Part shown: positions 29,256 to 48,205 of the stretch, one piece after another | Position numbering within the stretch: position 1 is the first letter of the stretch | How the letters are laid out: every line of letters begins with the position of its first letter | DNA from: Flavobacteriaceae bacterium | GTDB taxonomy: Bacteria > Bacteroidota > Bacteroidia > Flavobacteriales > Flavobacteriaceae | Reading direction: 5' to 3' | Assembly: GCA_002697255.1 (NCBI GenBank) | Contig: NZUH01000027.1 | Span: forward strand, 8,283-56,487 | DNA: 48,205 bases | Program-made: the position numbers and the translations under genes | The notes under the pieces: model-generated | What the model was told of the DNA's origin: nothing | The model's input: the letters and a program-made list of their open reading frames with translations, nothing else | Databases searched by the model: none

Positions 29256-29648
29256 ATGACAAATTTTTTTTTATTTCAATTAATAGTTTTTTTTATTTCA
29301 ATTAATAGTTTTGCTCAAACTAAATCCACCAAAATCATTGTTGATGGGGTTTGTATGATGTGTGAAGAAAGAATTGAAAAAAATATAATAGGATTAAAAG
29401 GTGTTAAGTTAGCCAATTGGAATCTTGAGAATAGAATATTGAAGTTAGTCTATAATGAAAAGAAAATTTCTCTTGACGAAATTCATAAGTTTCTAGCATC
29501 TATTGGTCATGATACTAATAAAGAAATAGCGTCAAATCAAGCTTATAACTTATTAGATCCTTGTTGTCAATATCGTGACGTTCAAGTTGTGAAAGATCAC
29601 GGTTTAGATAGAAAACCAATCCATGGTTCAAATAAAAAAGAGCAATAA
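29256..29648 (+). CDS. Secreted heavy-metal-associated (HMA) domain protein
   Basis: Signal peptide MTNFFLFQLIVFFISINSFAQ; HMA DGVCMMCEERIEKNIIGLKGV; C-terminal CC motif NLLDPCCQYRD. Confidence 0.85.
   Translation: MTNFFLFQLIVFFISINSFAQTKSTKIIVDGVCMMCEERIEKNIIGLKGVKLANWNLENRILKLVYNEKKISLDEIHKFLASIGHDTNKEIASNQAYNLLDPCCQYRDVQVVKDHGLDRKPIHGSNKKEQ
29265..29308 (+). repeat. Perfect 22-bp tandem direct repeat (2 copies)
   Basis: ttttttttatttcaattaatag at 29265-29286 and 29287-29308, followed by tttt. Confidence 0.95.
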
Positions 29649-35989: not shown

Positions 35990-38455
35990 ATGGCAGATAA
36001 TTTAGTTATAGTTGAGTCACCCGCGAAAGCAAAAACAATAGAAAAGTTTCTAGGTAGTAATTTTAAAGTTGCGTCTAGTTTTGGTCATATTTCAGACTTG
36101 CCTTCAAAAAATATTGGTATTGATGTTAATGACAATTTTAAGCCTAGTTATGAAATTTCAACTGACAAAAAATCCATTGTAAAAAAATTACGTGACTTAG
36201 CTAAAAAATCAAAAACCGTTTGGTTGGCCAGTGATGAAGATAGAGAGGGTGAAGCAATTGCCTGGCATTTGTTTAGAACTCTAAAATTAGATGAAAATTC
36301 GACTAAAAGAATTGTTTTTAATGAAATAACTAAATCAGCAATTACACATGCGATCAGTAACCCAAGATCTATCAATTATAATCTTGTTGACGCTCAGCAA
36401 GCTAGAAGAATATTGGATAGGATAGTCGGTTACGAATTATCACCTGTTCTTTGGAGAAAGGTTAAGGGAGGTTTATCAGCTGGGCGAGTTCAATCTGTTG
36501 CTGTTAGACTCTTAGTCGAAAAGGAAAGAGAAATTAGAAATCATGAATCATTATCTAAATTTAGGGTCGAAGGAATTTTTGAAAATAGTAACAACAAAGA
36601 TTTTACAGCTAAATTTTCTAAAGAATTTAATTCTAAAGATGAGGCTGAAAATTTCCTCAAAAGTATGATTGGTACTTCTTTTAATGTTTCAGAAATATCA
36701 AAGAAGCCTTTAACAAAATCTGCTCCAGCTCCTTTTACAACTTCTACACTCCAACAAGAAGCTTCAAGAAAATTATCATTTCCTGTTGGAAAAACTATGA
36801 GTACCGCTCAGAGACTATATGAATCAGGACATATTACTTACATGAGAACGGACAGTGTTAACTTATCATCACTTGCACTGGAAGAGGCAAAGAAAAAAGT
36901 TATTAGTCTCTTTGGTGAGTCTTACTCAAATCCAAAAAATTACAATACAAAATCAAAAAGTGCTCAGCAAGCGCATGAAGCAGTAAGACCAACTAATTTT
37001 TCAATATCCCCAGAGAGTATTTCCGACTATGATCAGAAAAGATTATATAATTTAATTCTAAACAGAACATTGGCTTCTCAGATGATGCCTGCTAAATTAG
37101 AGAAAACAAATATTAAAATTTCTAACTCTAAAAATGATGATTTATTTTATGCAAGTGGTCAGGTTATAAAATTTGATGGTTATTTAAAACTCTATCAGGT
37201 TTCAAAGGATGATTCTGCTAATGAGGAGGACGGTATTTTACCCAACTTTACTGAAAAAGAAGTATTAAATATGAAGAATTTATATTCTTTACAAAAATTT
37301 AGTAGACCTCCTTACAGATATTCAGAAGCTTCACTTGTTAAAAAATTAGAGGAGCTTGGCATTGGTAGACCATCTACATATGCTCCTACAATTTCTACAA
37401 TTCAGAATAGAAAATATGTAGATAAAGGCTCAACTGAGCCCAAGGTAAGAGATTTGATAAAATTATCAATTATAGATAATAAAATAAAGGAAGAAAAATT
37501 GACCGAAAAATTCGGATCAGACAAGGGGAAACTTATACCTACTGATATAGGAATGATAGTTACGGACTTTTTGATTAATCATTTCAAAAATATAATGGAT
37601 TACAATTTTACTGCAAGGGTCGAAGAAGATTTTGATAGCATTGCAGACGGAAAGAAAGAATGGACAGAAATGATGAAAAATTTTTATGATAATTTTCACC
37701 CTATTGTGGAAGATGTTCAAAAAAATGCCACTAGAGAAAGCGGAAAGAGAGTTTTAGGCATGCATCCTGAAAGCGGTAAGGAAATTAGTGTTAGACTTGG
37801 AAAATTTGGTCCCATGGTTCAGATTGGGACTGTTGAAGATGAGGAAAAACCAAAGTTTGCTAGCTTGCCTTTAGATTTACAAATTGAATCAGTTAGTCTA
37901 GATGAGGCATTATTGCTTTTTCAGCTTCCTAGGGATATTGGTAAGGTTAACGGTGAAATGGTTGTCGCTAATAACGGCAGATATGGTCCTTATATAAAAT
38001 TTGGAAAAAAATTCATATCTATTCCTATCGGAAAATCACCAACTTCTATTTCTTTAAATGAAGCAAAAATCTTAATTGATGAAAAGCAAAAAGCTGATGC
38101 TCCAATTCACATATATGAAAATATGGACGTACAGAAAGGAAAAGGGAAATTTGGACCCTACATTAAATGGAATAACATGTTTATTAATGTTGGAAAGAAT
38201 TATGATTGGGATAATTTAAGCAAAGAAGAAATCGAAGAATTAATTGAGGACAAAAAGAGAAAAGAAAGAGAAAAAATTATTCACAATTGGGAAGATGAAG
38301 GTATTAAAATAGAAAAAGGTAGATGGGGTAAATTTTATCTCGTAAAGTCAAATAAACGTATTCTCTTAGATAAAAATTTAGACGTTGAATCACTGGATTT
38401 AACTAAGGCAAAAGAATTATATCAGGCCAATTCGCCAAAAAAAACTAAGAAGTAA
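35990..38455 (+). CDS. topA: DNA topoisomerase I
   Basis: NLVIVESPAKAKTIEKFLG, ASDEDREGEAIAWHL, YMRTDSVNLS, repeated C-terminal GRYGPYIKFGKKFI modules. Confidence 0.96.
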   Translation: MADNLVIVESPAKAKTIEKFLGSNFKVASSFGHISDLPSKNIGIDVNDNFKPSYEISTDKKSIVKKLRDLAKKSKTVWLASDEDREGEAIAWHLFRTLKLDENSTKRIVFNEITKSAITHAISNPRSINYNLVDAQQARRILDRIVGYELSPVLWRKVKGGLSAGRVQSVAVRLLVEKEREIRNHESLSKFRVEGIFENSNNKDFTAKFSKEFNSKDEAENFLKSMIGTSFNVSEISKKPLTKSAPAPFTTSTLQQEASRKLSFPVGKTMSTAQRLYESGHITYMRTDSVNLSSLALEEAKKKVISLFGESYSNPKNYNTKSKSAQQAHEAVRPTNFSISPESISDYDQKRLYNLILNRTLASQMMPAKLEKTNIKISNSKNDDLFYASGQVIKFDGYLKLYQVSKDDSANEEDGILPNFTEKEVLNMKNLYSLQKFSRPPYRYSEASLVKKLEELGIGRPSTYAPTISTIQNRKYVDKGSTEPKVRDLIKLSIIDNKIKEEKLTEKFGSDKGKLIPTDIGMIVTDFLINHFKNIMDYNFTARVEEDFDSIADGKKEWTEMMKNFYDNFHPIVEDVQKNATRESGKRVLGMHPESGKEISVRLGKFGPMVQIGTVEDEEKPKFASLPLDLQIESVSLDEALLLFQLPRDIGKVNGEMVVANNGRYGPYIKFGKKFISIPIGKSPTSISLNEAKILIDEKQKADAPIHIYENMDVQKGKGKFGPYIKWNNMFINVGKNYDWDNLSKEEIEELIEDKKRKEREKIIHNWEDEGIKIEKGRWGKFYLVKSNKRILLDKNLDVESLDLTKAKELYQANSPKKTKK

Positions 38456-38460
38456 ATATC

Positions 38461-39648
38461 ATGGACTCTGATTTTTTGACATCACCATTTGACAATTTAT
38501 TAACGCCAGTTGATGACCATCTTATTGTTCATAACGAGCTGATGTCTTCCTTAATTCTTGGAAATAGAATCAAAATTCATACTGCAAAAAATGGTATTCC
38601 AGATTTAGATAATTTTGATTTGGCTATTATTGGTGTTTCAGAAAATAGAAATTCAGTAGAATATCTTGGTGATAAATTAAATTTAAATGAAATAAGAAAG
38701 TCTTTCTACAATCTTTATCCTGGAAATTGGTCCAAAAACATATTAGATATGGGTAATTTAATCCATGGTAATGAAATAAAGGAGACTTATAGTAGACTAG
38801 TTTCTCTGTTAACAATTCTTTTTGAAAAGAAAATCATCCCAATCATAATAGGAGGGAGCCAAGATTTATTATATGCAAATTATAGAGCTTATGATGAATA
38901 TAAAAACACTGTAAATATTGTTAATGTTGATTCAAATTTTGATCTGGGTGATTCATCAAAACCGATAAATAATTTAAGTTATTTAGGTAAAATCATTTTG
39001 GATAAACCTCATAATTTATTCAACTACTCAAATTTAGGATATCAAACTTATCATAATTCTCAAGAAGAAATAGATTTAATGGAAAGTTTATATTTTGAAG
39101 CATACAGAGTTGGTGAGGTATGTGCAAATATTAGTATTGCCGAGCCAGTCTTAAGAGATGCTGACATAGTTGGTGTAGATTTAAAGTCAATTAAAGCATC
39201 TGAATTAAGTTCAAGGCAAAAATTTTCTCCAAACGGCTTTGACGGTAAAGAAATATGTGCAATCAGCCGGTATGCCGGAATTAGTAATAAGGTCTCTTCT
39301 TTTGGTGTTTACGAATATAAATCATCAAATGAAGATGAAATAACAGAAGCTTTAATTTCTCAAATTATTTGGTATTTTATTGAAGGAGTTAATTGTAGAA
39401 TAAAAGATTCTGATTTTGATAATGAAGATGATTACAATAGGTTTACTGTCATTGTTGACGATTATGAAATGGTATTTTATAAAAATAAAATTACTTCAAG
39501 ATGGTGGATTGAAATTTTATCTGGACAATTAAATACTAAACTTAAGGGAACTGCGTTATTACCGTGTACAAGCAGTGATTATGAGTCTGCTAAAAACGGT
39601 ATTATACCTGATAGATGGTTCAAAGCAGTTAAAAAAAATGTTCTTTAA
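38461..39648 (+). CDS. Arginase/formimidoylglutamase-fold protein with degenerate metal site
   Basis: PIIIGGSQDLLYANYRAY, NIVNVDSNFDLGDS, VGVDLKSIK occupy the arginase GGxH, DxHxD and DxD positions; sits between topA and gldK. Confidence 0.75.
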   Translation: MDSDFLTSPFDNLLTPVDDHLIVHNELMSSLILGNRIKIHTAKNGIPDLDNFDLAIIGVSENRNSVEYLGDKLNLNEIRKSFYNLYPGNWSKNILDMGNLIHGNEIKETYSRLVSLLTILFEKKIIPIIIGGSQDLLYANYRAYDEYKNTVNIVNVDSNFDLGDSSKPINNLSYLGKIILDKPHNLFNYSNLGYQTYHNSQEEIDLMESLYFEAYRVGEVCANISIAEPVLRDADIVGVDLKSIKASELSSRQKFSPNGFDGKEICAISRYAGISNKVSSFGVYEYKSSNEDEITEALISQIIWYFIEGVNCRIKDSDFDNEDDYNRFTVIVDDYEMVFYKNKITSRWWIEILSGQLNTKLKGTALLPCTSSDYESAKNGIIPDRWFKAVKKNVL

Positions 39649-39742: not shown

Positions 39743-41410
39743 ATGAAAAAAATATTTTACATTCTTATTTCCATACTTATCACATATAGTTGTGGGTCAA
39801 ATGGTCCTGCAGGCAAATCTAAAGGGGAGCTTGTAGGTATTAAGGGTAAGAAATACTTCACTGAAAAACCTTATGGTATGGTTTTAGTACCTGGAGGATC
39901 TTTTATCATGGGAAAATCAGACGATGATTTACCTTCAATTCAAGATGCCCCAACTAAAACTGTTACTGTAAGATCTTTTTATATGGATGAAACAGAAATT
40001 ACAAATTCAGAGTATAGACAATTTGTTAGATGGGTTAGAGACTCTGTGATTAGAACAAGACTAGCTGAATTTGCTTCTGGAATTGATGACATTGAAGATG
40101 CAATGTATCCTTTTATGTATAAATCAGAAAAAGAATTGCTTGCTAGTGAAGACGATAACAACAGTGATGAGAATGTTTACAATTACAATTTAAATAATAA
40201 CAATAAGACATTAGATTGGGATATTGAACTTGTTGGTATAGGCCCAACTTACAATAATCCAAAAGGAACTTATGATAAAAGTTTATGGCCTCATGAAGAT
40301 TATGCTGCTGTGATGGATGAATTTCTTCTTTCCAAGGACGAGATTTTTAACGAAATGAAATTTGCCTGGAATGTTGAGAAGTTTTTATTCAAAAATAAAT
40401 TTTCTAATATTTCTGGACAAAATGGATATTTAGCTAAAATTGAAGAGGTAAAAAGAAAAGAAATTGAACAAATTTATGAACAAATGCAAACTGATGGTGG
40501 AATTGACGAAGTAACCCAACCAGGTTCTGTTCCGACATTTGTCTATTATGAAAAGAGAGATCCAAACGATCCTAATTCCGGTTTTACTGATGAGATCGAA
40601 AAAACTGTAAGGGTTACAGAAAGTTATTTACATGAAAAGTGGCCAAGCTCTAAAAGAAGTAAATTTATAAAGGAAGTTCCTGTTCCGATTTATCCTGATA
40701 CTACTGTTTGGATGAGGGATTTTAATTATTCCTATAATGAACCAATGCACAATGATTATTTTTGGCATGATGCGTACAACGATTACCCTGTTGTAGGCGT
40801 TACTTGGCATCAAGCCAAAGCTTTTTGTGAATGGAGAACTAAAACCAAAAATGATTATCAAAAAACTAAGAAAAAGAAAAGTTTAGTTCCGGAGTTTAGA
40901 CTTCCAACCGAGGCTGAGTGGGAGTATGCTGCTAGAGGAGGCTTGCAAGGAGCGATGTATCCTTGGGGAGGTCCTTATACTAAGAATGACAGAGGATGTT
41001 TTATGGCTAATTTTAAACCAATGCGAGGAGATTATGCGGTTGATCAGGCATTATACACGGTTGAAGCTAATGCATATGATCCAAATGGTTACAGTTTATA
41101 TAACATGTCAGGAAATGTATCTGAATGGATTGATTCTTCGTATGAAGCTGAAGCTTACGAGTTTTCATCAAGTATAAATCCGAGTGTTAATAATACTGAG
41201 AACAAGTTAAAAGTAGTTAGAGGTGGTTCATGGAAAGACGTAAAGTATTTCTTGCAGGTTAGTTCTAGAGATTATGAGTACGCATCAAGAGCTAGAAGTT
41301 ATATTGGCTTTAGAACTGTTCATGATTATCTCGGCGCTGATATGACCGCAAATGCTATGACAAATTCAACAACAAAAAAAAATAATAATAAAAGAAGTTC
41401 AATAAAATAG
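39743..41410 (+). CDS. gldK: Gliding motility / T9SS lipoprotein GldK (FGE-sulfatase domain)
   Basis: Lipobox ITYSCGSN; GMVLVPGGSFIMG, FRLPTEAEWEYAARGG, YNMSGNVSEW, VVRGGSWKD. Confidence 0.95.
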   Translation: MKKIFYILISILITYSCGSNGPAGKSKGELVGIKGKKYFTEKPYGMVLVPGGSFIMGKSDDDLPSIQDAPTKTVTVRSFYMDETEITNSEYRQFVRWVRDSVIRTRLAEFASGIDDIEDAMYPFMYKSEKELLASEDDNNSDENVYNYNLNNNNKTLDWDIELVGIGPTYNNPKGTYDKSLWPHEDYAAVMDEFLLSKDEIFNEMKFAWNVEKFLFKNKFSNISGQNGYLAKIEEVKRKEIEQIYEQMQTDGGIDEVTQPGSVPTFVYYEKRDPNDPNSGFTDEIEKTVRVTESYLHEKWPSSKRSKFIKEVPVPIYPDTTVWMRDFNYSYNEPMHNDYFWHDAYNDYPVVGVTWHQAKAFCEWRTKTKNDYQKTKKKKSLVPEFRLPTEAEWEYAARGGLQGAMYPWGGPYTKNDRGCFMANFKPMRGDYAVDQALYTVEANAYDPNGYSLYNMSGNVSEWIDSSYEAEAYEFSSSINPSVNNTENKLKVVRGGSWKDVKYFLQVSSRDYEYASRARSYIGFRTVHDYLGADMTANAMTNSTTKKNNNKRSSIK

Positions 41411-41434
41411 ATTTAAAAATATAAAAATTAGATT

Positions 41435-41971
41435 ATGAGATTACTTAATAAAACACAAATGAATTTTGCCTACGGAATGGGTGCTGCTGTTGTAATTATT
41501 GGTGCCTTAATGAAAATTACACATTTTCAGTTTGGATTCTTAACCGGTAATTTAATGTTAACCATTGGACTGGTAACAGAAGCTATTATTTTTGCACTTT
41601 CAGCGTTTGATCCACCAGGTGAAGACTACGACTGGGAGTTAGCATTTCCTGAGTTAAAAGGTGGTAAATCAAAACCAGGTGAAAAAATGCCAGATGTTGA
41701 TGTTGAAGGTATGCTTTCTAAAAAAGTTGATGAAATGCTTCAAAAAGCAAAATTAGATCAAGAAGTTGTCTCAAGTCTTACTAAGAGTATAAAAGATTTT
41801 GAAACTTCTGCTAAATCAGGAGCTGATAATGCAACTGAGTTGGTTAAAATCAATAAAGAGTTTGCTGATAATGCTAGTAAACTTACAGAGCAAATGGAAT
41901 CTTTAGCTTCTAATTTAGAAGCATTAAATAATGTTTATGGTGGTGTTTTAAATGCTATGAATAAAAAATAA
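41435..41971 (+). CDS. gldL: Gliding motility / T9SS motor protein GldL
   Basis: Two N-terminal TM segments NFAYGMGAAVVIIGALMKITHFQFGFLTGNLMLTIGLVTEAIIFALSAFDPP, then coiled-coil. Confidence 0.95.
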   Translation: MRLLNKTQMNFAYGMGAAVVIIGALMKITHFQFGFLTGNLMLTIGLVTEAIIFALSAFDPPGEDYDWELAFPELKGGKSKPGEKMPDVDVEGMLSKKVDEMLQKAKLDQEVVSSLTKSIKDFETSAKSGADNATELVKINKEFADNASKLTEQMESLASNLEALNNVYGGVLNAMNKK

Positions 41972-42005
41972 TATTGTTTTTTTTATAATACTTAAATAAA
42001 AAAAT

Positions 42006-43667
42006 ATGGCAGGAGGAAAAGAAAACGCAAGACAGAAGATGATTAATCTGATGTATCTTGTATTTATTGCAATGTTAGCTTTAAATATGTCCAAAGAGGT
42101 GTTAGCTACTTTTGGTGTTATTCAAAATGAAGTTTCCAAATCATCAAAATTATTAGACGGTAATAATAAAGATCAGATTATCGCTATGAAAAGTAGCGCC
42201 CAAGAATCACCCTTAAAATGGAAGGAGCCGTTTGAAACAGTTAGTTTGGTTTCTGAAGCATCCGAAAATTTATTGGCTTTCATTAATTCTGATTCAATGA
42301 AAAGGCCCATTAAAATGACTTTAAATAAAATTAAAAGAGAAGTTGATGGCTCAATTCCTGACTCAATTCCTGACTATGAAGTAATGGATCAAACTGTTTG
42401 GTTTGACGAGTTATTTTTTAACGGAGCTTATAAAAATTCTGAAAACACAGGATACACGGACAAAGGAAACGAGTTTGTTAGATTAATGAATGAGTTTAAA
42501 GAAATTTCTGTTGAAGCAATTGAGAATTCAAAGATTGGTGAAAATGATTCTGTAGTTAAGAAAAAATGGGATCAAAATAAAGGATCAATAATTACTTTGA
42601 TAAATAATAGTTTTAACACAAATGCTGTTAAGGTTGGAAAAGCTGATGACAAGATAAAAGGTTGGTTGAACTTTAATTATGAAGGATTTCCTGAAATAGC
42701 TTCGATTACAAAACTTGCATTACTTGAAGAAGACATCTTAAATGTGGTAAATAAATTAATTACTGTTTTAAAACAAAGTATTGAAGGTGAAAATCTTAAC
42801 ACTCTAAAAGCTATAGTCGGAGATGTAAACAATTATTACAGAGGGGATAAATTAACGGGAACTATTTCACTTGGGAAATATGACCCCACTTTTATAGCTA
42901 ATAGAATTGTAATTAACGGAAAAGAATATGACCCATCTCAAGTTATGGAAAACGGTCAGATTATTCTTGAAAAATTAAATACCAGAGTTGGAAGTGTTGG
43001 TGAAAGAACATTAACTGGTGAAATCATTTTTGACAGAACTGATCCTGATTCAGGTGAGAAAATTGAAGTCAAGATCCCGATTGAACAAATATACAGAGTA
43101 AACCCGTCTCTAGCAATTGTCAGTAATGATGATATGCAAGTTGTTTTTAGGGACATTGATAATAACCTATCGATTTCTATGATAGGTGTTTCTGATTCAG
43201 ATCTCCAAATTGTTTCACCAAGTGGAGTGAAAAAAAACGGAACAGGAAAATATATTTTATCTGGAGCTAAAGGAGATAAGGTTACAATTAAAACCAGAGA
43301 TAAATCATCTGGAAACACAGCATCTATTGATTTTGCTGTGATTAAACTACCAAAACCAACTGCAATTTTTGGTAATGGGAAGGCTTTGGTAGCTAAAAGT
43401 AAAATTGGAGGTTCTACATTAAAAGCCGTTTATGATGACGATAGACTTAATAATAGTTTATCACCCAGAGTTGTATCATTTAAGATGAGAGTTGGGGTAA
43501 AGTATATTGGTCAGTCTAACAGTAACAGATTGTCTTCTAAAATGAAAGCTGCCATAAAGAAAGCAAAAAAAGGAGAGAGTATAAGTATATATGATATTAG
43601 TGTAAAAAGTAGTAAAATATCTGGATTAATTACACCTAAAACTGACATTGCAGTAACCGTTAAATAA
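42006..43667 (+). CDS. gldM: Gliding motility / T9SS motor protein GldM
   Basis: AGGKENARQKMINLMYLVFIAMLALNMSKEVLATFGVI. Confidence 0.95.
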   Translation: MAGGKENARQKMINLMYLVFIAMLALNMSKEVLATFGVIQNEVSKSSKLLDGNNKDQIIAMKSSAQESPLKWKEPFETVSLVSEASENLLAFINSDSMKRPIKMTLNKIKREVDGSIPDSIPDYEVMDQTVWFDELFFNGAYKNSENTGYTDKGNEFVRLMNEFKEISVEAIENSKIGENDSVVKKKWDQNKGSIITLINNSFNTNAVKVGKADDKIKGWLNFNYEGFPEIASITKLALLEEDILNVVNKLITVLKQSIEGENLNTLKAIVGDVNNYYRGDKLTGTISLGKYDPTFIANRIVINGKEYDPSQVMENGQIILEKLNTRVGSVGERTLTGEIIFDRTDPDSGEKIEVKIPIEQIYRVNPSLAIVSNDDMQVVFRDIDNNLSISMIGVSDSDLQIVSPSGVKKNGTGKYILSGAKGDKVTIKTRDKSSGNTASIDFAVIKLPKPTAIFGNGKALVAKSKIGGSTLKAVYDDDRLNNSLSPRVVSFKMRVGVKYIGQSNSNRLSSKMKAAIKKAKKGESISIYDISVKSSKISGLITPKTDIAVTVK

Positions 43668-43673
43668 TTATTC

Positions 43674-45209
43674 ATGAGGAGATTAGATTTTAAAATATGT
43701 TTACTTTTTTTAATTACATGTAGCTATTCTTTAAATGCTCAGAACCCCGAATATAAATCGGGTTTAAGTAATTTATTAAATGCATCAATTCCTGAAGAAA
43801 TTGGTGTAAGAACAACAGCGCAAATTAATTCTGATTCTGAAGACCCACTTGAATATGGATATGTAGATGATAACGATATATTATGGTCTACCATCGTGTA
43901 TGAAATAATTGATTTAGACGAAAGAGTAAATTTCCCACTTTTATATCCAACACAATTTGGATTGGTAGGTAACGAAAGAAGACCGATGCTTTGGTGGTTA
44001 AGACAAGAAATTGAAAAAGGCTCTATTCCGGTTTATGATCAAGGTGATGCTGGAGGTTATTTTTTAGATAAAGTTGAGCCAGAAGATGTTACTAATATCT
44101 TTAGAAAAAAAAATATTTATGATGTTGGAAATGAAAAAAGAGATAATGGTGCTGAGGAAATTAGATTTAAAATTGAAGAGCAAGAAGAAAAATTTTCTTT
44201 TAACCCATACAATGAAGGTTTAAGCTCAGAGGAAATTGAAGTTCTGCAAAATACCCCTAATTTTATAAAATTATTTCCTTACAAAATTAAAGATGATCAA
44301 TTAGCAGAATCATTTCTTGATGGTATAATTACTTATGATCAATTCAGTCAGTATGAGAATGAGGAGATTTTAGATGATGATTTACTTGTTCAATACGAGT
44401 TAACTTTTAGAGAAATGGTCGAAGAACTACTTTTTGTTTTTGAAATGGATTATGACTGGATTGAAGTTGATTATTCTGACCTAAGACAATGGCTTATTAA
44501 GGGGGTTTGGTATTTTGATAAAAAATATTCTGAGCTTATTTACAGGCCTATTGGAATTGCTCCTGTAATATTACCTCAATCAGCTGATGAAGATGATTTT
44601 TCTAGCGGAAGTGATGAAGATGAAATGGATGAATTACCAACAGCAGAAGAATTGTTGGGTGATGGAGAAGATTCAGATGGAGATGGTATTTCTGATGATA
44701 TTGAAACAGATGAATATGATTTAGATCCTGATGATCCTGACACTGACGGTGACGGTCTGGAAGACGGGGATGAAGTATTAAGAGGATTATATGCTGATGA
44801 CCCGGATTATGATTCTGACGGTATTTCAGATGGTGATGAAATTGCAAATGGAACAAATCCTTTTGTAGACGAGAATAACAGTGGAGATGACGGAGATGAT
44901 TCTGATGACGCAGATGACGTTTCACCAGGAAGTAATTTAACTGTTCTATTTTGGGTATATTACCCTCAGGCAAGGGGAATTCTAAAGAAAGGCCATGCAT
45001 TTAATAGTAGAAATATGACTCAAAGTATTTCTTTTGATGAGATTATTAATTCAAGAAGATTTAATGGTGTTATATATAAAGAAGAAAATGTATATGAAAA
45101 CCGTGAGGTAAAAGATTATATCCCAAATAATTCTTTTATGAGATTACTTGAGTCAGAAAGAATAAAAGAAAAAATAAGAAATTTTGAGCATGATATGTGG
45201 AGTTGGTAA
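43674..45209 (+). CDS. gldN: Gliding motility / T9SS protein GldN with a TSP3-like insertion
   Basis: PEEIGVRTTAQINSDSEDPLEYGYVDDNDILWSTIVYEIIDLDERVNFPLLYP; C-terminal FWVYYPQARGILKKGHAFNSRN...SRRFNGVIYKEENVYENREV...RIKEKIRNFEHDMWSW. Confidence 0.94.
   Translation: MRRLDFKICLLFLITCSYSLNAQNPEYKSGLSNLLNASIPEEIGVRTTAQINSDSEDPLEYGYVDDNDILWSTIVYEIIDLDERVNFPLLYPTQFGLVGNERRPMLWWLRQEIEKGSIPVYDQGDAGGYFLDKVEPEDVTNIFRKKNIYDVGNEKRDNGAEEIRFKIEEQEEKFSFNPYNEGLSSEEIEVLQNTPNFIKLFPYKIKDDQLAESFLDGIITYDQFSQYENEEILDDDLLVQYELTFREMVEELLFVFEMDYDWIEVDYSDLRQWLIKGVWYFDKKYSELIYRPIGIAPVILPQSADEDDFSSGSDEDEMDELPTAEELLGDGEDSDGDGISDDIETDEYDLDPDDPDTDGDGLEDGDEVLRGLYADDPDYDSDGISDGDEIANGTNPFVDENNSGDDGDDSDDADDVSPGSNLTVLFWVYYPQARGILKKGHAFNSRNMTQSISFDEIINSRRFNGVIYKEENVYENREVKDYIPNNSFMRLLESERIKEKIRNFEHDMWSW
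44580..44933 (+). other. Asp-rich thrombospondin-type-3-like Ca-binding repeat insertion within gldN (~118 aa)
   Basis: DSDGDGISDDIETDEYDLDPDDPDTDGDGLEDGDEVLRGLYADDPDYDSDGISDGDEIANGTNPFVDENNSGDDGDDSDDADD. Confidence 0.9.
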
Positions 45210-45327: not shown

Positions 45328-45399
<72 letters not shown>

Positions 45400-45406
45400 C
45401 TAATTT

Positions 45407-45511: not shown

Positions 45512-48205
45512 ATGTACATGAATTTACGTGGTTTATTTATTGGTATTGTATTATTTTTTTTTGGGATATATAATTTATATTCTCAAGAAACTACTGCAGC
45601 TATACCAGAAATAATCTTTAATAATACTTCTACTTATGCTCCTGGTTCTGGAGTTTCTGTTCATATAGATCCAAAAGGAGTTTATGAGATTGCAGATATC
45701 AATAATGACGAAAAAATTACTATAACCGATTTAGAAGATGATTCTAATAATAGATTTATTTTAGAATTATCTGATTTAGGAGGGATTACTTTTAATAATC
45801 CAACACTTTTATCAACTGTTTATGATTTTTATACACCTTTAATCAACGGAACCCTTCCGGAAAATTTAACCCCTGGTACTTATAGTTTAAGAGTTAGAGC
45901 AACTAAAGGAGTTGTTTTTAACGATGACTTTGAACAAATTGAAAACACATACAATCAACCTGAAATTGTAACTGGAACTTTTAGTGTTTCGGGTAATTCT
46001 ATTAATTCTAATTGGGATCTAGATACTGCATTAACTAATGGTGCCGAATATTTTCAGTGTATAGATGACGATGAACAAAATAACGGTAATTTTTTTAATA
46101 CGATAAACCCAATTTTTGGTAGCGTTACAAGAGATGTTTCATCAGGAGCAACAACCGATACTGGATCTGAATCTTTATTAAGAATAAAGTTTTTGTCATA
46201 TGATAATTCAAATGATTACAATATTAAATTGCGGGATATTAAAAATGAAACTTCACAAGATCTTACTATATCCACAGGGTTTACTGGTGCATTTATACAA
46301 ATTCCGGCGAACACTTCAAATAATCTTGGTATTGGAACATATAATCTTGAAATTGAAGAAGTAAATTCTGATGGAGTCTCTAGCTTTATCTCTACAACTT
46401 TTGTTTGGCACACGCCAGTTACAAATTTAGGAGGAGGAAATGATAATATCTGTGTTGGAAGTACAGTTGACTTTACGATTGATAATTCTGGGATTGAAAC
46501 AAATTATAAGGCTTCTGTCTATAGGATTGATTTTGGAGATAACCAACCTGTTGAATTTTATACTCAGGCTGAACTTTTAATTGATAATTATTATACATCT
46601 GGTCAGTTAGTTCCAGACACACACTCTATTAGTCATCAATTTGACTTGGTTTCTTGTGATATAGATTCCTCCGATCCTACTGCTGATTCTAAATTTTTAG
46701 TCGACTTAGACTTATTTAATAAATTCAAAAATCCAGTCGAAGGTGATTGTTATGACTATATTCAGAACGGTAATGGAGTTAGTAAGTATGTAAATACCAG
46801 TTTACCGCCAGAAGCATCATTTCAAATGAATCTTGATCATTGTATTGGTAACGATATTTTGGTAGATAATACAACTATATTTGGTTCATGGGGAACTGAA
46901 GGTGAATGTGTTGAAGATGCAACTTTTCAATGGTATGTAAAAAAACCAGGATTTTCATCTTGGGAAGCAATAAATACAGATGTTCAGTTTGTCACACCAG
47001 GATTAACAATTAATGATTGGCTAATAGGTGAGAGCTCTGATAATTTTTTAATTCCAGATTCTTCTAACGGATATATTGATTTATTACTACCTGCTGCTTT
47101 TGTAGATACATCAGGCTGTTGGGCAGTAAAGCTTGAAGCTTCAAATATTGCTGTTTGTACTTCGCCAACCTCTTATGAATTCTCTTTCAATGTTGAGACT
47201 AATATCAATTCTGAATTTAATATTTTAAACTCTTCAAACGAAATTGTTACTGAGATTTGCACTGATGAGACAGTCAATTTTGATGACTTATCAACTTATG
47301 AATTTTGTGCTTCAAATTTTACTAGCCCTACTTATCAATGGACAATTGTTTTAACATCTACAGGTGATGATTCAGGGTATTATTATACTACAAATACAAA
47401 CAATGTACAAACATCTAGCAGTTCTGCTGAACCTTTTGTTATTTTCGATGAGCCTGGTACTTATACAATTACACAGCAAATAACCAATTCATGCGGAACT
47501 TTTAATTCAGAAAAATCTTTGTTGGTCGAAGGTGCACCGTCTGTAAATTTTCCAAATGAAACTGAAAATATATGTTTACTTCCGTCAAATCTTCCTTACA
47601 TTATAGACTTTTCTTCAGAACAGATTCCAGTCTATTCTTCGATACCTTATGAACCTTCATCTTATTCTTGGACCATTACTGGAGATAATGTTTCATCTGA
47701 TGATTATGAATTTATTCAGAATACTTCAAATTCTGATTCAACCCCAGTTATTCAATTTAATTCTTTTTTAGATTATAACATTCAAATTCAGGTAGACGGA
47801 GATTGTGATGACTCAAGTAATGATATACTCTTGTTAAGAATTAATGAAATTCCTGTCTTGACTAATTCTGAAGATTCTGAAATAGTATGTTCAAATACTG
47901 AGACAAACGGATTTATTTTCACCTCATCAATGGATACGACACAGTATTCCTGGACTGTTCTTAATGCTTCAGATAATTTATCAAATTATTTTGAGAATGG
48001 TATTGGAAATATTCCTGCTCAGCAAATTAATAACTCTAATAATCAAGTAGGAATTATAACATATGAGGTAACTCCATATGTACCCTCTCCTCCAGAAGAC
48101 TTTTTATGTACAGGTACTTCACAGACTTTTACCATTACGGTAAATCCTGAGCCGGATATTAATAATGTTACAGAGACGATATGTAATGAAGGGACTTTTA
48201 CTACG
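45512..48205 (+). CDS. Large secreted PKD-like repeat protein, 3' truncated by window (probable T9SS substrate/adhesin)
   Basis: Frame open for 898 codons to window end (absent from ORF track because no stop is reached); signal peptide (MY)MNLRGLFIGIVLFFFGIYNLYSQ; PKD-like segments such as PTYQWTIVL...FDEPGTYTITQQITNSCGTF and NPEPDINNVTETICNEGTFTT. Confidence 0.88.
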   Translation, partial: MYMNLRGLFIGIVLFFFGIYNLYSQETTAAIPEIIFNNTSTYAPGSGVSVHIDPKGVYEIADINNDEKITITDLEDDSNNRFILELSDLGGITFNNPTLLSTVYDFYTPLINGTLPENLTPGTYSLRVRATKGVVFNDDFEQIENTYNQPEIVTGTFSVSGNSINSNWDLDTALTNGAEYFQCIDDDEQNNGNFFNTINPIFGSVTRDVSSGATTDTGSESLLRIKFLSYDNSNDYNIKLRDIKNETSQDLTISTGFTGAFIQIPANTSNNLGIGTYNLEIEEVNSDGVSSFISTTFVWHTPVTNLGGGNDNICVGSTVDFTIDNSGIETNYKASVYRIDFGDNQPVEFYTQAELLIDNYYTSGQLVPDTHSISHQFDLVSCDIDSSDPTADSKFLVDLDLFNKFKNPVEGDCYDYIQNGNGVSKYVNTSLPPEASFQMNLDHCIGNDILVDNTTIFGSWGTEGECVEDATFQWYVKKPGFSSWEAINTDVQFVTPGLTINDWLIGESSDNFLIPDSSNGYIDLLLPAAFVDTSGCWAVKLEASNIAVCTSPTSYEFSFNVETNINSEFNILNSSNEIVTEICTDETVNFDDLSTYEFCASNFTSPTYQWTIVLTSTGDDSGYYYTTNTNNVQTSSSSAEPFVIFDEPGTYTITQQITNSCGTFNSEKSLLVEGAPSVNFPNETENICLLPSNLPYIIDFSSEQIPVYSSIPYEPSSYSWTITGDNVSSDDYEFIQNTSNSDSTPVIQFNSFLDYNIQIQVDGDCDDSSNDILLLRINEIPVLTNSEDSEIVCSNTETNGFIFTSSMDTTQYSWTVLNASDNLSNYFENGIGNIPAQQINNSNNQVGIITYEVTPYVPSPPEDFLCTGTSQTFTITVNPEPDINNVTETICNEGTFTT

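Follow-up and report, generated by a model that had tools for sequence, protein, structure and literature searches.

The gldN gene of the window (the whole stretch of DNA that was analysed, 48,205 nucleotides) is an open reading frame with a chain length of 511 amino acids. It is the last gene of a gldK, gldL, gldM, gldN cassette at positions 39743-45209, in which every gene scores above its own curated cut-off. The window belongs to a 1.5-Mb Flavobacteriaceae genome that is 84% complete. The genes and features are the following, in window positions.

35990-38455, + strand: TopA-like gene (named from its sequence), next gene to the left of the arginase-family gene; its tree follows the species tree
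38461-39648, + strand: arginase-family gene (PF00491), flanks the cassette on the left; its tree agrees with the species tree
39743-41410, + strand: gldK, first gene of the cassette, 555 aa (TIGR03525, 528.5 bits), with an RGCF cysteine motif at residues 417-420
41435-41971, + strand: gldL, 178 aa, with a short C-terminus (TIGR03513)
42006-43667, + strand: gldM, 553 aa (TIGR03517 and four GldM Pfam domains)
43674-45209, + strand: gldN, 511 aa (TIGR03523, PF19841; AF2 model similar to solved PorN chains)
44121-44423, + strand: second lineage-specific region of GldN, helical, approximately residues 150-250 (AF2 pLDDT about 85-97)
44514-44534, + strand: hairpin FDKKYSE, GldN residues 281-287, counterpart of the PorK-contacting turn in PorN (9mzu alignment and PMC12421860)
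44580-44933, + strand: acidic TSP3-bearing insert, GldN residues 303-420, delimited by alignment with relatives whose linker here is 12-21 aa
44670-44705, + strand: predicted calcium-loop repeat 1, DSDGDGISDDIE, residues 333-344 (motif scan and shuffles; ligands invariant in 8 inserts)
44739-44774, + strand: predicted calcium-loop repeat 2, DTDGDGLEDGDE, residues 356-367 (motif scan and shuffles)
44805-44840, + strand: predicted calcium-loop repeat 3, DYDSDGISDGDE, residues 378-389 (motif scan), complete only in the window GldN and in L054
44868-44933, + strand: poly-acidic tail of the insert, residues 399-420 (from the sequence)
45105-45107, + strand: Glu478 codon, counterpart of PorN A241, the residue that is cross-linked to PorM D4 (9mzu alignment and PMC12421860)

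The GldN amino acid sequence scores 184.9 bits against the equivalog profile TIGR03523 (curated cut-off 85.9) and 162.2 bits against PF19841, which bears out the original prediction that the gene is GldN. A Foldseek search with the AF2 model gave PorN chains as all of its best five matches (E-value = 6e-5 to 3e-3), and the solved PorN chains matched by the core are 9mzu, 9ots, 9myj and 7pvh. The likeness to GldN/PorN extends over the family profiles, the gldKLMN gene order, the conserved C-terminal part and the fold. The window GldN differs from PorN in having a TSP3-bearing acidic insert of 118 aa where PorN has about 9 residues, and an additional helical insertion near residues 150-250. The aligned length of this second region is 120-142 aa in GldNs with TSP3 repeats, compared with mostly 27 aa in ordinary Flavobacteriaceae.

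Contact sites known from PorN were placed with a numbering offset of 23, derived from the 9mzu alignment and from residue identities compared with the published ones (PMC12421860). The PorN turn F156-D162 hydrogen-bonds PorK (PMC12421860); it corresponds to F281-E287 of the window GldN, where the alignment shows the hairpin to be retained. An engineered disulfide links PorN A241 to PorM S460 (PMC12421860), and in the 9mzu alignment this alanine stands opposite E478.

The T9SS machine around the window GldN looks complete, since gldJ and sprA are found in the genome and the RGCF cysteine of GldK is retained. The GldK chain (555 aa) is longer than that of ordinary Flavobacteriaceae (~455 aa), with the extra sequence lying between about residues 110 and 300 and common to both cassette classes of the genus, described below. 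GldL, at 178 aa, is shorter than in ordinary relatives (~205-216 aa), and the short form is also present in g164 and in species with a short GldN.

The insert lies between residues 290-302 (YRPIGIAPVILPQ) and the sequence from residue 421 on (NLTVLFWVYYPQAR). It is 118 residues long and in frame, and it coincides exactly with the span given in the original prediction, which described it as a TSP3-like insertion. This description is upheld by a motif scan, which shows three strict loops of the form DxDxDGxxDxxE spaced 23 and then 22 residues apart, and by the bacterial TSP3 model PF18884, which gives 26.7 bits against a gathering score of 25. The best PF18884 stretch is at residues 380-397, and the model matches 7 of 43 scanned GldNs at E 0.01. 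The 122-residue junction of the window GldN contains 51 Asp/Glu and a single Lys/Arg. Such a composition does not produce the repeats by chance: among 50,000 shuffled inserts none had three strict repeats and three had two. The GC content of the insert is 40%, compared with 30% in the remainder of gldN, as expected from its Asp and Gly codons.

The loops are conserved. In an alignment of 8 inserts, 35-60% identical to that of the window, none of the ten ligand positions in repeats 1 and 2 varies; in two GldNs (L056 and L060) loop 2 is degenerate, with the glycine lost. The insert is an inherited module with two or three TSP3/EF-hand-like predicted calcium loops in an acidic arm. In spacing, loop form and score it resembles the bacterial TSP3 repeats of PF18884, but the window repeats are located within a ring subunit of a secretion machine. 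A search of six genomes with the TSP3 model gave matches in only the three with a long GldN, and in GldN only; in G000, G004 and G006 gldN was the sole TSP3 gene found.

A clear gldN is present in 14 of 21 genomes of the genus; seven of the frames have the insert (509-526 aa) and seven are without it (373-389 aa). Two more insert-bearing GldNs (L054 and L060) were obtained from GTDB contigs. Of 171 distinct GldN frames, nine have the TSP3 motif; all nine belong to one closely related Flavobacteriaceae group, and in each the two or three repeats lie at this one junction. The GldN of ordinary Flavobacteriaceae is mostly ~300 aa, with a linker of 12-15 residues at the junction, and the linker is 12-21 aa in most other GldNs, so that the original prediction was right in taking this junction to be a short linker elsewhere. 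The 9/171 count also rules out that the insert is an ordinary part of GldN, which would have refuted that prediction; the insert is rare. Assembly chimerism at 44580-44933 is likewise ruled out by eight further distinct GldNs with repeats at the same place. Thus the insert is genuine, occurring in nine distinct GldNs from separate genomes. Some of the eight are on contigs named in single-cell-genome style. The carrier, taken to be marine at the outset, does look so from contig names and small genomes, and the window bacterium is probably marine.

Outside the genus, no TSP3 match spanning the insert was present among the matches listed for 400 genomes of the family and 398 of the phylum, a survey whose figures are to be read as "at least" and in which a very divergent insert could be missed. 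GldN is a known ring subunit; what is new is a variant with a TSP3 acidic arm, in one genus and found in no other lineage sampled. The term "thrombospondin type 3" was absent among the matches listed in a literature search for TSP3 with GldN or T9SS.

The same junction is filled by unrelated Asp/Ser-rich sequence in three other genera. In g164 (G196 and G384; also L063, L065 and L066) there are DDSDPF-type repeats, and in g149 (G181 and G374) and g73 (G105, on the same contig as L062) there are Asp/Glu/Ser-rich stretches. The GldN junction is a length-tolerant hot spot. It has been observed as well that the L182 and L183 GldNs, from other genera, have unrelated acidic inserts at this junction. 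A tree of gldKLMN places g164 as the sister of the TSP3 class (100/100), and therefore the acidic arm probably came first and the TSP3 loops were a later refinement.

The reading preferred here, with a probability of about 0.4, is that the insert forms an acidic arm, permanently loaded with calcium, on the motor-facing side of GldN, and that it is carried in a co-inherited and exchangeable gldKLMN cassette; we infer the calcium loading, the direction of the arm and its partner. The fillers in other genera suggest another possibility, a rather doubtful one, in which the junction tolerates acidic sequence and TSP3 is one filler among several that does little beyond acting as a hydrophilic spacer. 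The invariance of ten out of ten ligand positions in a fast-evolving insert argues against this, as does the retention of repeats in nine of nine sampled members, two of them with a degenerate second loop.

The insert has a solved relative. A profile of the insert searched against the PDB matched only the staphylococcal Bap B and BSP domains (E-value = 1.9e-6 and 3.1e-6; 7c7r/7c7u). Foldseek superposes the model of the insert on Bap over 40 residues at 1.1 A with 45% identity (probability 1.00, E-value = 0.16). By profile and fold together, EF-hands 2-3 of the Bap B domain (7c7r, 7c7u), with paired loops about 23 residues apart, are the best solved match. AF2 of the insert alone gives a mean pLDDT of 72-87 across repeats 1-2 (residues 326-375), and in the full-length model the pLDDT of the insert is below 50. 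Bap is a cell-surface biofilm adhesin, whereas the window GldN is part of a periplasmic machine. The Bap loops sense calcium, mutation of positions 1, 3 and 12 abolishes sensing, and the behaviour of the B domain is changed by calcium (PMC7785521).

By analogy with this switch, and in line with the original prediction, the arm might be a calcium sensor that becomes ordered upon binding and switches the coupling between ring and motor. Bap, the closest solved relative, and its mutations at the loop positions speak for this, but it is unlikely. Calcium in seawater stays close to 10 mM, and permanent loading is for this reason likelier than sensing; the sites should stay filled at that concentration unless their affinity is very low. 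"Calcium-responsive" is therefore the weakest step of the original interpretation. In the preferred reading of a permanently loaded arm, calcium-rich seawater would keep the loops filled, and the loaded loops would make the middle of the arm an ordered and fairly stiff unit within a strongly acidic sleeve.

The direction of the arm is suggested by the geometry of PorN. The insert starts directly after a 13-residue strand (residues 287-299) that leaves the PorK-facing turn. As it is at the far end of this strand from the PorK/GldK-contact hairpin, the arm is expected to extend from the side of GldN that faces the motor. PorKN rings contain 31-35 heterodimers, and in a model for F. johnsoniae GldN provides closely spaced contacts for the motors (PMC12635249). 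Dozens of GldN subunits in one ring or track would then line up their acidic arms densely in front of the basic D4 tip of GldM, and this row may add grip or spacing between motor and ring. The arm is not essential to a GldKLMN machine, since half of the gldN-bearing species of the genus are without it.

The published contact between PorM and PorN is a model backed by an engineered cross-link (PMC12421860); another group reports weak confidence for it (PMC12635249). Charge data bear on whether the arm meets GldM. The mean net charge of GldM D4 is +12.0 in the TSP3 class, +15.3 in g164 and +10.3 in other acidic lineages, compared with +2.7 in those species of the genus that have a short GldN and +5.8 in others. 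Across operons the charge of the junction is correlated with that of D4 (Spearman -0.79, n=95), and also within the non-acidic lineages alone (-0.68). Phylogenetic contrasts give r = -0.38 (p 3e-4) on the GldK tree and r = -0.09 (p 0.39) on the GldN-core tree, and sign tests on the contrasts of junction and D4 charge are not significant. The charge of GldM D3 shifts opposite to that of D4, and the sum of D3 and D4 hardly changes. The coupling is strong in the raw data and weak after phylogenetic correction; it is a lead and not a result. Another partner is conceivable, although improbable: the arm could, with calcium as a bridge, act on a periplasmic or secreted protein or between adjacent GldN subunits. 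Variable regions of PorN touch the neighbouring subunits, and this junction may be one of them, but GldM and GldN diverge together in the cassette far more than GldK does.

In this genus two deeply diverged gldKLMN classes occupy one locus and have been exchanged between species, and the insert is the mark of one of them. A species tree was made from rpoB, gyrB, parE and the arginase-family gene adjoining gldK. In it the window genome groups with species that have a short GldN (96/96), and G011, which likewise has a short GldN, stands beside the TSP3 species G003 (96/95). The gldKLMN tree was made from columns in which at least 90% of the rows have a residue, which leaves out the insert, and it separates a TSP3 class (100/100) from a short class (100/100). 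The species tree rejects a single TSP3 clade (p-AU 1.8e-66), which rules out a simple single gain by descent along it, and the gldKLMN core tree in turn rejects the groupings of the species tree (p-AU 1.5e-48 and 6.3e-28); these p-values are not to be taken literally, as the groups were named after the trees had been seen and long branches are present.

The contrast between species and cassette is plain in raw identity as well. G011 and G003 are 96% identical in RpoB, 98% in ParE and 92% in the arginase-family protein, but 33% in GldM and 43% in GldN. With the more distant G009, G011 shares 89% identity in GldL and 76% in GldM. TopA on the left and the genes to the right pair G011 with G003, as in the species tree. 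The flanks follow the species tree and gldKLMN the opposite grouping, and therefore the exchanged piece extends from about gldK to just past gldN. The SprA tree keeps the species groups wherever it is resolved. The GldJ tree places G011 with the TSP3 species and the window genome without firm placement (the G014 row has no proper GldJ frame). The cassette would move as a unit because GldL, GldM and GldN must presumably fit one another.

An ancient tandem duplication of gldKLMN with differential loss, instead of exchange, is a very unlikely source of the tree conflict: the two classes are indeed old, and in the gldKLMN tree the TSP3 class groups with the cassette of another genus, but every search of the genus gave a single gldN per genome and both classes are at the same locus with the same flanks. 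The exchange of the whole of gldKLMN suggests that motor and ring together form a compatibility unit open to exchange in nature. A broader proposal, to be regarded as tentative, is that the T9SS motor and ring are exchangeable cassettes within the genus, one class of which would couple motor to ring through a calcium-stiffened acidic arm, present on each GldN and docking on a basic GldM tip. A naturally occurring GldN that has a bulky module near the interface and is matched by its own GldM is a direct handle on how GldM pushes the ring or track of GldK and GldN.

Some minor features of the window were also observed. A tRNA-Met (45328-45400) is located about 120 bases past gldN, near the right end of the exchanged segment. 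Positions 45512-48205 encode a large protein with weak PKD-type matches, which runs off the window; relatives of it (~36% identical) follow gldN in G007 and G010, and none was matched downstream in the other genomes examined. A perfect 22-base tandem repeat, TTTTTTTTATTTCAATTAATAG, is present in 2.2 copies at positions 29265-29312.
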